Part shown: positions 4,627 to 9,610 of the stretch, one piece after another
Layout: each line of letters begins with the position of its first letter
Numbering within the stretch: the first letter of the stretch is position 1
NCBI GenBank assembly: GCA_018303945.1
Contig: JAGVXD010000009.1
Location: forward strand, 1 to 32,490
Length of the DNA: 32,490 nt
Direction of reading: 5' to 3'
DNA from: Candidatus Pacearchaeota archaeon
Lineage (GTDB): Archaea > Nanobdellota > Nanobdellia > Pacearchaeales > GW2011-AR1
The notes under the pieces: generated by a model
What the model saw: the letters and a program-made list of their open reading frames with translations, nothing else
Database searches by the model: none
What the model was told of the DNA's origin: nothing
Program-made: the position numbers and the translations under genes

Positions 4627-5091
4627 ATGCCTGCAGATTTTTCTATTGTTCAAGCCGCTGTCCCCTTTCTTACTTTTCTCATAACTTTAGTTGTCGTCTT
4701 GGCAATTCTCTTGAAAGCCAAGATTTTTGACGCTTTCATCTTTAACTTTGTACTTGCTCTCGCAATATCACTTATATTTGTCACTTTCATAAATGCCAGA
4801 GAATTTGTCATAAGGGTTGTTCCATTCTTTGCCATTCTGCTAATATGTCTTGTTTTTATACTGGCAGTTATTGGTTTCGTGGGAAAGGACATATCTTTCA
4901 TGACTAAGGGATTTGGAGCGGCTTTTGCCATATTTCTAGCAGTTGGGATGATTATTGCAGCGATTATATCTTTTAAGCCGTTTCAAAATCCATATGCCTC
5001 ACAAATTCTGGAGCCTCAATGGTACGGAGCAATAATAATTCTAGTTATTGCAGGCGCTGCATCGTGGATATTTTTTAAGGTAAAAAAATAA
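4627..5091 (+). CDS. Membrane protein, paralogous trio member 3
   Basis: 154 residues with four to five membrane helices and a short basic end (FKVKK). It has the same fold pattern as the two genes before it: a helix, a LLKAKIFDAF turn, then a long helix. Start chosen at ATG 4627, because AAGGAG (from 4616) lies at Shine-Dalgarno distance and overlaps the alternative GTG at 4621. Translation is probably coupled to the previous gene, whose stop is 9 nt upstream. Its stop codon directly abuts the stop of the convergent coiled-coil gene at 5092. Function unknown. Confidence 0.7.
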   Translation: MPADFSIVQAAVPFLTFLITLVVVLAILLKAKIFDAFIFNFVLALAISLIFVTFINAREFVIRVVPFFAILLICLVFILAVIGFVGKDISFMTKGFGAAFAIFLAVGMIIAAIISFKPFQNPYASQILEPQWYGAIIILVIAGAASWIFFKVKK

Positions 5092-5769
5092 TTACTGGGA
5101 TTCTTGCTGTTGAGGAGATTTTCTTGCTTCAGGCATGAGCGACTTAAAAGATTTTTGAGTTTCGTGCAATTCGTTTTTCACGTCTTCAACTGCAGAAGCA
5201 TAATCACCTACTTTTTGTAGTATGGCGAGCTGGAGGTGATCTATAATCTTTTCTATTCTCTTCAGTCTTTCATCAAGATAGCTTATTTTATTTTCCACAG
5301 TATTTTTTAATTCTATCACTTTATCTATATCGCGCCTAACAGAGTGTATTTTTTCATTCACAATCTGTTCAGCTAATTCAGTAATAACATCTGTGCTCAT
5401 GGAATTTCCAGAATATTGCTGGTATTCTTGATATTGTGGAGGATATCCCTCGTTTACCTGCGAAGTATAATTGTTCTGTTCAGGTACTTGATATTGTCCA
5501 GTCTGCGGTGATTGCTGTGCTGATTGAGCGGGAGATAACATTGAAGGCTCCATACCTGAAATATGGGAAAAAGACTGCGGAGGCCCATGCGGAGAATCTG
5601 AAGCAGGCATTTCAGGAGTGCCGCCAGCCACCGCTTCTCTTATGCGCGATTGTGCCAGAGCTTCCTGAACTTCCTCCGGAGCGTAACCATGGGATTGCAT
5701 CAATTGAGATATGTCTGACTCGCTTCTTCCCTCTCTCTGCATTGTTTTTATCTCCTCTATTATTCCCAT
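5092..5769 (-). CDS. Helical-domain, Pro/Gln linker and coiled-coil protein
   Basis: 225 residues in three parts. Residues 1-43 form a small UBA-like or SHOCT-like helical domain (EEIKTMQREGRSESDISQLM, then YAPEEVQEAL). Residues 45-115 are a disordered Pro/Gln/Ser/Tyr-rich linker. From about 125 to 215 a continuous coiled coil runs through KNTVENKISYLDERLKRIEK. No membrane segment is seen. The 99-residue gene just upstream on the same strand is also a coiled coil, and both are divergent from the pilus ATPase. They could correspond in role to the cytoplasmic coiled-coil ArlCDE proteins of archaella, but I see no direct sequence proof. A Shine-Dalgarno-like AGAGGA precedes the ATG by 4 nt, with a TATA-like box around 5803-5811. 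Confidence 0.65.
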   Translation of the reverse strand: MGIIEEIKTMQREGRSESDISQLMQSHGYAPEEVQEALAQSRIREAVAGGTPEMPASDSPHGPPQSFSHISGMEPSMLSPAQSAQQSPQTGQYQVPEQNNYTSQVNEGYPPQYQEYQQYSGNSMSTDVITELAEQIVNEKIHSVRRDIDKVIELKNTVENKISYLDERLKRIEKIIDHLQLAILQKVGDYASAVEDVKNELHETQKSFKSLMPEARKSPQQQESQ

Positions 5770-5813
5770 ATTTCCTCTATTTATTATGTGGCAATGTCTT
5801 GTAGTTTAAATTT

Positions 5814-6113
5814 CTATGCTTTCCTAAAAAGGTCAAATTGTCTTTGAAGCATCATAAGCTCTTCTTTTCGCGCCGCCTGTGAGCTTTGCTCTACCAAATT
5901 TTGAATTATTTCTTTTATTCTATCCTGCTCCTCTTTCAATGTGAATAGAATTTTCTTTATATCCTGAATATCTTTAAAGGTTTTCTCTTTCTCATCAACA
6001 AGAGTTTTTCCTATAAGCAGAACTCTGTCCTTAAGAATTCTTTGCTTTTCCTCAACATCCCTTATCTTTGTAAGCGGGTCAGGGGCGCTTGTTTCCGCAT
6101 ATTCTTCCGTCAT
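5814..6113 (-). CDS. Short coiled-coil protein beside pilus ATPase
   Basis: 99 residues, highly charged and almost entirely helical; heptads of I/L/V run from about residue 20 to 95 (EEKQRILKDRVLLIGKTLVD, then KKILFTLKEEQDRIKEIIQN). No membrane segment or signal. The TATA-like TTTAAA (about 6132-6142, read on this strand) is centred 24 nt from the ATG, so the transcript is probably leaderless. It is divergent from the ATPase at 6211 and upstream of another coiled-coil gene on the same strand. An accessory role in the pilus machine is inferred only from position. Confidence 0.6.
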   Translation of the reverse strand: MTEEYAETSAPDPLTKIRDVEEKQRILKDRVLLIGKTLVDEKEKTFKDIQDIKKILFTLKEEQDRIKEIIQNLVEQSSQAARKEELMMLQRQFDLFRKA

Positions 6114-6210
6114 GAGTTAGTAAATAGTTAAGAGTTTAAAATTGTTTGGATAGATAAAACCCCCTGCAGGATAGAAACTTATATAAGAGTATGAGATATT
6201 TAGTTGTAAG

Positions 6211-8502
6211 GTGAACATGATATTCAAAGATAATGCCGCTTTATACGCAAGCGAGATAGACCGAAAGCAGGGTGAGGATGTTTTATACATAAATTACCTA
6301 ACGGCGCCATTTGTTCCATCAATAGCAGACAATACTTCGGACATGGCCAGAGTCATAGATTTAATATCCGAAAATTCATCAATAGCAAGAGTTATTTTAG
6401 TACAGCAGAGAAATTATCATTATCCTGCTGAACAGATTCTGCTTCTAAGCGAGATTGCGGCGCTATACTCATTTCTTACTAAACAAGAAGCGGTTCTTTC
6501 CATACAGAAACTTAGCGTATTTGGAAATGTTGGAGAAGTGCATCAGGATATTTCATACCTTCTTGTTCTCTTAAGACAGGATCCAATAGGGTGCTATATA
6601 GAACTTCAGAGAAGAGTCAGGCAGCTGCGGGGACAATTAGAAAAAGGACAAGTGATTAACGTAAGCGGATTGGTGAATTATATAAGATTTCTTGAGAGAT
6701 TTTTAGGGCTGGTAGAAAGGACGAAGCTGATTCAGAAGACTCTTCCTGAAATAGCAGGAATGCTCGGGAGCAACAGGGAAATTTACAAATCTGTATTCAG
6801 ACCAGACATACTACCTAACTTTACTTTTACCCGTTTAGTTGCCGTAATTCCTTCAGATGCAGAACTTATTAACCAGTATGAAATAAGTGGGAGCTTTGAG
6901 CAAGCTACGGTTACTATACTGAAGCGTAAGAGCGATTCAAAATATCTATATCATGTAATGCCTCCGGAATACACTCTTTCTGAAGAGCACCATCTTCTTC
7001 TCAATATTGCCCGCGGAGTTTTGCTGGAGCATAGACCAAAGGCAGAGGAATTTACAGATCCTGAAAAAACGAGGCACGTTTTTTTCAATGTAGCCAGGGA
7101 CTTAGTCAGCGAATTAGCCAAGAGCAAAAACATGGAGCTTACATATCGCGAACTTCAGAAGCTTGCCAGAATTTTAGTAAGGTACACAATAGGATATGGA
7201 TTGATTGAGATTCTTTTATTGGATGAGAAGTTGCAAGATATCGCTTTAAATGCCCCTATTGCACAGAACCCTATATTTGTAAGGCATGAGCAGTACGAGG
7301 AATGTGCAACTAATATAATACCCAGTTATGAAGATGCAGACTCATGGGCTGCTAAACTTCGCCTTCAATCAGGAAGACCTCTTGACGAAGCAAACCCCAT
7401 TCTTGATAGTGATCTATCATTTGGGAGCGTAAGGGCAAGAGTGGCAGCGATAAAAGAACCCTTGTCGCCTTCAGGACTAGCTTATGCTTTTAGAAGACAC
7501 AGAGACCAACCTTGGACATTGCCATTGTTTATCAAGAACAAGATGATTAATTCTTTTGCAGCAGGACTCTTGAGTTTTCTCGTTGATGGTAGTAGGACTC
7601 TGCTTGTAGCCGGGACAAGAAGTTCGGGAAAGACTTCTTTATTAGGAAGCCTAATGCTTGAAATAATGCCTAAATACAGAACTATTGTTGTAGAGGATAC
7701 CCCTGAACTTCCGGTTGATTCTTTGCGTAAGATAGGATATGACATTTTGCGCATGAAAGTGCGAAGCGCACTGATAGAAGGAACTACCGAAGTTGAGGCT
7801 TCAGAAGGCATAAGGGCCAGCTTGAGATTGGGCGACTCTGCCTTAATTGTAGGGGAGGTAAGAAGCACTGAAGCGAGGGCATTATATGAAGCAATGAGAG
7901 TGGGGGCATTGGCAAATGTAGTAGCAGGAACTATTCACGGAGATTCACCATATGGAGTTTTTGACAGAGTTGTAAATGATTTGAATGTGCCGGCTACAAG
8001 CTTCAAGGCAACAGACATAATAATCGTAGCAAATCCGGTTAAGACTCCTGACGGACTAAAATCAAGCAAGAGGGTAATGAGAGTTACTGAAGTAAGAAAG
8101 CATTGGACAAAAGACCCTCTGGAAGAAGGAGGATTTGTTGATTTGATGAGATACAATGTAGAGAAAGATGAGCTGGAGCCGACACCAGAATTAATAAATG
8201 GGGAATCTGAAATATTAAAAAGCATCGCCGGAAATGTCCGAGGTTGGGCTGGGAACTGGGATGCAGTATATGATAATATTATCCTGCGGGGACTAATAAA
8301 ACAAGAAATGGTTGATGAAGCTCTGCGTCTTGGAAAGCCAGAAATTTTAGAAGCAGATTTCAATGCAAAAGCCAATCATGCTTTTCATGTGATAAGTGAA
8401 AAAGTCAGAGAAGAATATGGACTGCCTTTAAGAGAACACGTTTTACCAAGATGGAAGGACTGGATGAAAGAGAAATTTTCTAATTATAGTGATAGAAATT
8501 AA
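6211..8502 (+). CDS. Type II/IV secretion (TadA/FlaI-type) ATPase
   Basis: Cytoplasmic hexameric ATPase that drives assembly of pilus, archaellum or secretion filaments. About 763 residues: a long N-terminal region (1-330) with no motif I know, an N2-like domain, then the RecA-like core. Walker A GTRSSGKT is at about 469-475, the Asp box VEDTPELP near 494, Walker B LIVGEVRS near 543 and the His box GTIHGD near 573. The extra N-terminal region makes it longer than archaellum FlaI (about 550). The start is uncertain: TATATAA (6178-6187) is centred 28 nt from GTG 6211, fitting a leaderless GTG; ATG 6217 preceded by AAGGTGA is the alternative. It belongs with the platform protein at 9760 and the pilins from 12192. 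Confidence 0.92.
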   Translation: MNMIFKDNAALYASEIDRKQGEDVLYINYLTAPFVPSIADNTSDMARVIDLISENSSIARVILVQQRNYHYPAEQILLLSEIAALYSFLTKQEAVLSIQKLSVFGNVGEVHQDISYLLVLLRQDPIGCYIELQRRVRQLRGQLEKGQVINVSGLVNYIRFLERFLGLVERTKLIQKTLPEIAGMLGSNREIYKSVFRPDILPNFTFTRLVAVIPSDAELINQYEISGSFEQATVTILKRKSDSKYLYHVMPPEYTLSEEHHLLLNIARGVLLEHRPKAEEFTDPEKTRHVFFNVARDLVSELAKSKNMELTYRELQKLARILVRYTIGYGLIEILLLDEKLQDIALNAPIAQNPIFVRHEQYEECATNIIPSYEDADSWAAKLRLQSGRPLDEANPILDSDLSFGSVRARVAAIKEPLSPSGLAYAFRRHRDQPWTLPLFIKNKMINSFAAGLLSFLVDGSRTLLVAGTRSSGKTSLLGSLMLEIMPKYRTIVVEDTPELPVDSLRKIGYDILRMKVRSALIEGTTEVEASEGIRASLRLGDSALIVGEVRSTEARALYEAMRVGALANVVAGTIHGDSPYGVFDRVVNDLNVPATSFKATDIIIVANPVKTPDGLKSSKRVMRVTEVRKHWTKDPLEEGGFVDLMRYNVEKDELEPTPELINGESEILKSIAGNVRGWAGNWDAVYDNIILRGLIKQEMVDEALRLGKPEILEADFNAKANHAFHVISEKVREEYGLPLREHVLPRWKDWMKEKFSNYSDRN

Positions 8503-8786: not shown

Positions 8787-8796
8787 TTTATAAATA
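8787..8796 (+). promoter_or_regulatory. TATA box for the 8816 gene
   Basis: TTTATAAATA centred 24-25 nt before ATG 8816, predicting a leaderless transcript. The same decamer lies at 17487-17496. Confidence 0.75.
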
Positions 8797-8815: not shown

Positions 8816-9610
8816 ATGGCAATAAAACTTAATGCAACACCAGAAGCATACAAAGAATTTTATGGCAGAAACGTAGAACAGATGCCTAAGCTAGTAGCCG
8901 AAGGTAGAGTTCCAATGAATGCTTCTCAATTAATGCAAAGGAGACTTGACTTTAGAAATGGTCCTGAAGCTGTAAAAACTGCTTGGATGGATAATTATTT
9001 TGATACTGGCGATGCAGTTATTTATCATCCAAATGGAGATGTAAAGATTGTCCTTGATTCTCAAACATTAAGAGAAATGACTCCTGAAAGCCAAAGAAAC
9101 AGCGGAGCATTGGTTCTTGGTGAGGATGTTTACAAAGCATTACAAGGCGAAGTATTCAAGAAAGGTAAGCTCGGAAAAGTTAATGATTCAATGTCACGAG
9201 AAGATGTTAAAGCTCATCCTGTTTGGAAGGTTTTAGCAAGAGATCAAGCATTACTTAATGATTATACAGATTTTATCTTTGCTGAAAGCAAAGAAAGATT
9301 TGATTACGACACTGCGATGGGAGTATTCCCAGGATCTTGCAGTGGAGATGAGCCTGAAATGAGGGCGTGGTGTGTCTGGTGGCTCGTCAACAGGTCTTAT
9401 GCTATTGGCAGGTGCGTTCTTGACCGTGACAATGGTCGCCTCGTCGGTATAGCGCCGGAGGCGCTTAGTGCGCAGGGCAAGGGTGCCTCAAATATAAAAG
9501 CATATTCAATGGTAGATGTTCAGAAAGCTAGAAAACAATTAGACCAAATAGCTCAATTTATGAAGCCTGAATCTGTAGACAAAGTCAAGTCTTTACTTGG
9601 AAAACTTTAA
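8816..9610 (+). CDS. Hypothetical protein with internal DGR-like variable block
   Basis: 264 residues, soluble, with no membrane segment; family not recognised. Residues 1-180 use the AT-rich codons of the neighbours. From about codon 181 to 223 (9358-9484) base composition changes abruptly to G+C-rich, and nearly every codon in the core ends in C or T (gtc, tct, gct, att, tgc, gtt, cgt, gac). The peptide is Trp/Arg/Gly-rich (AWCVWWLVNRS, then DNGRLVG). After this the sequence returns to AT-rich, with a Lys/Gln-rich helical C-terminus. This matches a DGR target with an internal variable region and a C-terminal tail. Recent foreign insertion is an alternative. A TATA box 25 nt upstream supports the start. 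Confidence 0.7.
   Translation: MAIKLNATPEAYKEFYGRNVEQMPKLVAEGRVPMNASQLMQRRLDFRNGPEAVKTAWMDNYFDTGDAVIYHPNGDVKIVLDSQTLREMTPESQRNSGALVLGEDVYKALQGEVFKKGKLGKVNDSMSREDVKAHPVWKVLARDQALLNDYTDFIFAESKERFDYDTAMGVFPGSCSGDEPEMRAWCVWWLVNRSYAIGRCVLDRDNGRLVGIAPEALSAQGKGASNIKAYSMVDVQKARKQLDQIAQFMKPESVDKVKSLLGKL
9358..9465 (+). other. Candidate DGR variable region 2 with GC hairpin
   Basis: A block of pyrimidine-ending codons inside the 8816 gene, followed directly by the perfect inverted repeat AGCGCC-gga-GGCGCT (9451-9465). Replacing the first two bases of gtc, tct, gct, att, tgc, gtt and cgt by AA would give an Asn-rich template (AAC/AAT), as in DGR template repeats. Fixed flanks and a hairpin just after the block fit the DGR target layout. 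No template repeat or reverse transcriptase lies in the window, so a distant retroelement would be needed. Confidence 0.5.

Follow-up and report, generated by a model that had tools for sequence, protein, structure and literature searches.

A contig of 32,490 nucleotides from Candidatus Pacearchaeota archaeon (GCA_018303945.1, JAGVXD010000009.1; hereafter the window) carries an AT-rich gene in which a G+C-rich block is closely followed by a small hairpin. This raises the question of whether the block is the variable region (VR) of a diversity-generating retroelement (DGR) and, if so, where its reverse transcriptase (RT) and template (TR) reside. DGRs as a class are already known in DPANN archaea. 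The genome considered here is 803.7 kb in 22 contigs and is 87% complete; the window is contig C6. It is highly probable that the gene starting at 8816 is a DGR target acted on in trans, by which a C-type-lectin surface is diversified.

The target gene and its product

The features of the gene outside its variable part are as follows, all on the plus strand.

8787–8796, TATA-box-like TTTATAAATA, about 20–29 nt 5' of the start codon (sequence reading only)
8816–9610, AvpA-like DGR target gene, 264 aa, predicted C-type-lectin fold (ORF, AlphaFold and PDB fold match)
9509–9604, two predicted C-terminal helices 3' of the VR, as predicted for AvpA (DSSP helices 232–246 and 251–263)

The 264-codon ORF runs uninterrupted through the G+C-rich block, and a leaderless archaeal promoter is inferred for it, solely from the upstream letters. 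Homologues of the protein occur in 17 of the 140 genomes searched, the named ones being Pacearchaeota and Nanoarchaeota MAGs, and none was found in the viral contigs searched. No significant match was obtained in Pfam, NCBIfam, PADLOC or PHROGs, and no signal or membrane segment was obvious by eye, without use of a predictor. The sole strong PDB fold match of the AlphaFold model (pLDDT 89, built from 23 relatives) is 5ioo, which is AvpA, a nanoarchaeal DGR target (Foldseek; E 1.5e-9, TM 0.57/0.71). AvpA was recovered by fold search alone and was missed when PDB sequences were searched with a profile; the similarity is one of fold with no detectable sequence match. By its predicted fold, the protein is an AvpA-like C-type lectin, which supersedes its initial annotation as a protein of unknown family. 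The gene directly upstream (6211–8502) encodes a TadA/FlaI-type secretion or pilus ATPase, for which no functional link to the target gene has been shown.

The likeness to AvpA-type nanoarchaeal DGRs (Paul et al., 2015, PMC4372165; Handa et al., 2016, PMC5006420; 5ioo) includes a C-type-lectin target with an internal VR, an RFXGV-like beta-5 segment in the constant 3' end, a hairpin within coding DNA after the VR, a C-terminal extension predicted as two helices, and the presence of several DGRs per genome together with target-only partial DGRs. The AvpA motif GXXVVVYAH is recognisable as GDAVIYHP and RFXGV as GRLVG (GRFVG in relatives); of HPXXXPFXG, only HPVWK is seen. Unlike AvpA-type systems, the matching-subtype RT here bears a C-terminal HTH_40 domain and its gene a G12 tract, and the window target is remote, with its TR not found in the assembly.

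The variable region and its hairpin

G+C content is 52–56% across 9300–9499, against 32–42% upstream in the gene, and returns to 34% thereafter, consistent with the abrupt change described in the initial annotation. The Trp/Arg/Gly-rich peptide noted there is likewise present (MRAWCVWWLVNRSYAIGRCVLDRDNGRLVG), whereas the statement that nearly all codons end in C or T is slightly strong: about 22 of the 29 block codons do so, the exceptions being AGG, TGG and GCG. This composition is explained if adenines are randomly replaced in an AT-rich gene. The block itself is real, and its limits can be refined as follows (plus strand).

9363–9446, variable region (aligned in register over 84 nt with TRs of relatives, the differences being adenine-biased; orthologue divergence at TR-A columns)
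9433–9446, VR 3' end without TR adenines (IMH-like), TGGTCGCCTCGTCG, coding for the GRLVG beta-5 segment (no TR-A column beyond 9432)
9447–9450, 4-nt spacer from VR end to hairpin (TR/VR identity stops at GTCG in paralogues)
9451–9465, target-site hairpin AGCGCC-gga-GGCGCT (sequence, recurrence at five other VR loci, DNA fold)

The 6-bp hairpin is perfect, as originally proposed, and lies 4 nt past the VR end rather than directly after it. In phage DGRs, hairpins are located 4–34 bp 3' of VRs (PMC3240598), and that of the Bordetella phage BPP-1 DGR is likewise 4 bp after the VR (Guo et al., 2011, PMC3240598), but the window hairpin has a 6-bp stem and a 3-nt loop, not a 7–10 bp stem with a 4-nt GRNA loop. 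In AvpA, the RFXGV beta-5 segment is encoded by the IMH (PMC5006420). In isolation, 9451–9465 folds only mildly better than shuffled sequences (z −1.7). Its recurrence is nonetheless not what chance would give: the hairpin is common to five other loci in the genome, and GGTNTAGCGCCNGAGGCGC occurs at six genome sites, always where a VR copy has its 3' end, against 0 matches in the control. In paralogues on contigs C4 and C8, the hairpins are decayed or altered.

DGRs elsewhere in the genome

The genome contains two DGR-type RTs and three TRs that have VR partners, as well as seven additional VR copies. The window block matches contigs C22, C21 and C7, and the C21 TR region additionally matches C11 and C18. 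RVT_1 genes are present on C21 and C17, and both possess the GMPLGNxTSQ and YVDD motifs. Among PDB entries, 8ub7 is the closest relative of the C21 RT (E 1.7e-36, versus 3e-21 for a group II intron RT); this entry is labelled only 'Reverse transcriptase', and we take it to be the Bordetella phage BPP-1 DGR RT. The cassettes, in coordinates of the respective loci, are as follows.

C21 (L007): target 4947–5387, RT-16 RNA 5463–5601, TR about 5607–5691, RT 5722–7167
C22 (L009): target, RT-16 1594–1733, TR 1734–1817, RT remnant 1846–1960
C17 (L008): two targets with VRs 3386–3302 and 800–717 (minus strand), RT-16 5836–6007, TR 6005–6089, second RT
C3 (L162): RT-16 about 2489–2664

In six TR/VR pairs, 78 of 142 TR adenines are changed, compared with 5 of 382 other bases (Fisher 9e-47). 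The initial annotation would have been refuted by the absence of an RT and an A-rich template from the genome; both were found, and its proposal of a distant RT as the server gains support from the two DGR-type RTs and the TRs with adenine-specific partners. As these RTs and TRs are on other contigs, the 8816 gene would be served in trans. Adenine-specific TR-to-VR transfer and a DGR-type RT are shared with the BPP-1 DGR (mtd/avd/TR/brt); unlike in that system, no avd-like gene was seen between the C21 target and RT, and an RT-16 ncRNA precedes the TR instead. More broadly, inspection of the ORFs flanking the C21 and C17 RTs, without an Avd profile, revealed no avd-like gene.

Next to the C22 TR only an RT fragment remains, and the C21 RT may act on this TR in trans. 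One T-to-C difference from TR21 is common to the VRs on C7, C11 and C18, suggesting, by inference from the letters, a slightly different ancestral TR for these VRs. On C7 (L010, 5363–5172, minus strand), the VR is accompanied by a partial tandem copy of its own 3' half past a short insert, and the gene is broken; this copy may have arisen by aberrant retrohoming, or it may be an artefact of assembly at the contig end. On C3 (L162, 2489–2770), RT-16 is followed by a TR-like stretch whose end is formed by a VR-type hairpin, GCGCCgaaGGCGC, and no RT was seen next to it; this stretch looks like a TR/VR recombinant.

RT-16 RNA as a putative template scaffold

In the scanned loci, the region 5' of the TR matches Rfam RF03019 (RT-16) at 62–113 bits, above the gathering score of 50. 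Three of the four RT-16 RNAs in the genome directly abut a TR with a VR partner. Among the 45 RT-16 matches for which sequence was examined, 35 precede a TR with an adenine-biased partner, and the TR starts −6 to +4 nt from the end of the RT-16 motif in 34 of these and at +45 in one; when the RT-16 stretch itself was used as a mock TR, the control gave 1/45. Mismatches in these TR/VR pairs fall at A in 500 of 527 cases. Within 140 genomes, RT was found in 42, RT-16 in 41 and both in 37; across the phylum, 105 of the 371 genomes sampled contain RT-16.

The 5' end of RT-16 pairs with the 3' flank of the TR (e.g., CCCGAGAGG/CCTCTCGGG and TCCCAAG/CTTGGGA), forming a covarying stem which encloses the TR and extends past the 158 positions of the RT-16 model. 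Own partners pair better than randomly exchanged partners (z = 7.4). As the stem was picked as the best helix in each case, this permutation, and not single examples, constitutes the evidence; the genomes are related, and their kinship is not removed by the permutation. RT-16 thus appears, as far as sequence comparison can tell, to be the 5' part of the DGR template RNA, whereas Rfam lists the family only as an sRNA. No link between RT-16 and DGRs was found in the literature searched, where RF03019 occurs only as a row of the Rfam 15 table; such a link may nonetheless have been described before.

Template of the window VR and orthologue comparison

The genome search for an A-rich template beside an RT, suggested at the outset, yielded the TR/VR pairs described above, but not the exact template of 9363–9446: when A was allowed at any position, the 87%-complete assembly returned only the VR itself. 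The window VR fits none of the genome's four RT-16 cassettes. TR21 and TR22 were rejected as templates because of 21 and 18 non-adenine differences, respectively, and the C3 cassette because its TR is of a different type and no RT was seen beside it. The window VR aligns in register with the TR of a relative (G007), with 13 of 23 adenines changed versus 6 of 61 other bases (p=2e-5) and zero VR adenines opposite TR non-adenines.

Comparison of related strains, the other check initially envisaged, likewise revealed excess variation at the predicted TR-adenine positions. In seven orthologous VRs, 63% of pairwise comparisons at the 23 consensus TR-A columns, all of which are first or second codon positions, show a difference, whereas the figure is 7–10% for other VR codon-1/2 columns and 21–24% for codon-1/2 positions outside the VR. 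Because the TR of one orthologue-bearing genome (G023) had helped to define the TR-A columns, this genome was left out of the permutation test; 0 of 100,000 permutations reached the observed contrast. The G023 orthologue adjoins its own RT and TR, and 15 of 15 TR/VR differences are at A. In another orthologue-bearing genome (G008), there is no RVT_1 or RT-16 match, the VR is AT-drifted and the hairpin is altered. Together with the hairpin decay on C4 and C8, this indicates that loss of activity does happen in the gene family of the window.

Proposed mechanism and alternative explanations

In the proposed mechanism, the template RNA would consist of a structured 5' scaffold (Rfam RT-16), the TR and a closing 3' strand. 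A DGR-type RT would reverse-transcribe this RNA, misreading template adenines, and the cDNA would then replace the 8816 VR, the site being defined by the conserved 14 nt at its 3' end and by the hairpin 9451–9465. About 23 codon-1/2 positions in the C-type-lectin binding surface would thereby be randomised, with the frame and scaffold residues unchanged. The identity of the RT that acts on the window VR is inferred, as is the location of its TR, which would lie in the missing 13% of the genome or have been lost recently. That the VR is still being rewritten is inferred without read data, and that the protein binds a partner (a ligand of a host, neighbour or virus) without binding data.

An abrupt change in G+C could also mark a GC-rich insertion or a horizontally acquired domain with no relation to DGRs. 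Paralogues and orthologues, however, have the block in register, with TRs and adenine-specific differences, and the composition is accounted for by random adenine replacement; this explanation is very improbable, and the TR/VR pairs already refute it. Ordinary diversifying selection acting on a binding surface in the absence of templated mutagenesis would fit the observation that variation lies at the first and second positions of codons predicted to be at the surface, but the differences fall on template adenines, not on whole codons, adjacent non-A first and second positions are nearly unchanged, and the mismatch bias in relatives points the same way. Selection alone is strongly disfavoured by the TR/VR adenine counts and is hardly credible.

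A less easily dismissed explanation, still unlikely in our judgement, is that the VR is a fossil which was diversified by a DGR in the past, lost its TR and now evolves as part of an ordinary gene. The absence of a matching TR from the assembly, the degenerate relatives in G008 and on C4 and C8, and the target-only partial DGRs known in nanoarchaea (PMC4372165) are compatible with this. The window ORF, hairpin and G+C-rich VR are nevertheless intact, unlike the drifted cases, the genome has open DGR RTs, and 13% of it is missing. The preferred explanation, a target diversified in trans, rests on demonstrated TRs and RTs, adenine-specific TR/VR differences at other loci, the shared hairpin, orthologue variation at TR-A positions and the AvpA fold match, and these results also support the initial DGR-target proposal.

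Repeat tracts in RT genes

The C21 RT gene contains G12 at L007 6258–6269 with its frame open, which is the sole G/C run of at least 8 in the 121 kb of the genome examined; related RT genes have poly-G or (GA)n at this site, with frames open or broken. A poly-G (6–12) or (GA)n tract is present between the KADIK and GMPLGNxTSQ motifs in 18 of 36 related RT genes, including all eight frame-broken genes, whereas none of the 18 tract-free genes is broken (Fisher 0.0014). Tract density between these motifs is 3.2 per kb, compared with 0.26 per kb (387 kb sequence). This suggests that the tracts might exert phase-variable control. Three caveats make this a strong lead but no demonstration: the anchor motifs were selected once the tracts were already known, the genes compared come from related genomes, and the repeats may have been misassembled. 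No description of a phase-variable RT was found in the papers examined on DGR and phase variation, and priority is unsettled. A C-terminal HTH_40 is present in six of six RTs of the subtype serving the window family (L007, L092, L093, L094, L095 and L097) and absent from six other DGR RTs scanned.

The combined hypothesis for Pacearchaeota, which we favour only slightly, is that RT-gene tracts at a conserved loop site slip and so switch diversification on and off, and that RT-16 and the TR, closed by a long-range stem, form the template RNA.

Implications

Both the template RNA's identity and the possible switch may be new. This archaeon, whose genome measures about 0.8 Mb, devotes several loci to hypermutating one family of binding proteins, and some of the targets in this genome are far from any RT; contig-based surveys state that targets far from the RT are missed (PMC8144416). 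With the RT-16 assignment, an RNA family whose role had been unassigned would become a marker of archaeal DGR templates, which could then be located even where the RT is broken or far away. If the tracts are phase-variable, they would offer a straightforward explanation of how a dangerous mutator is kept under control.
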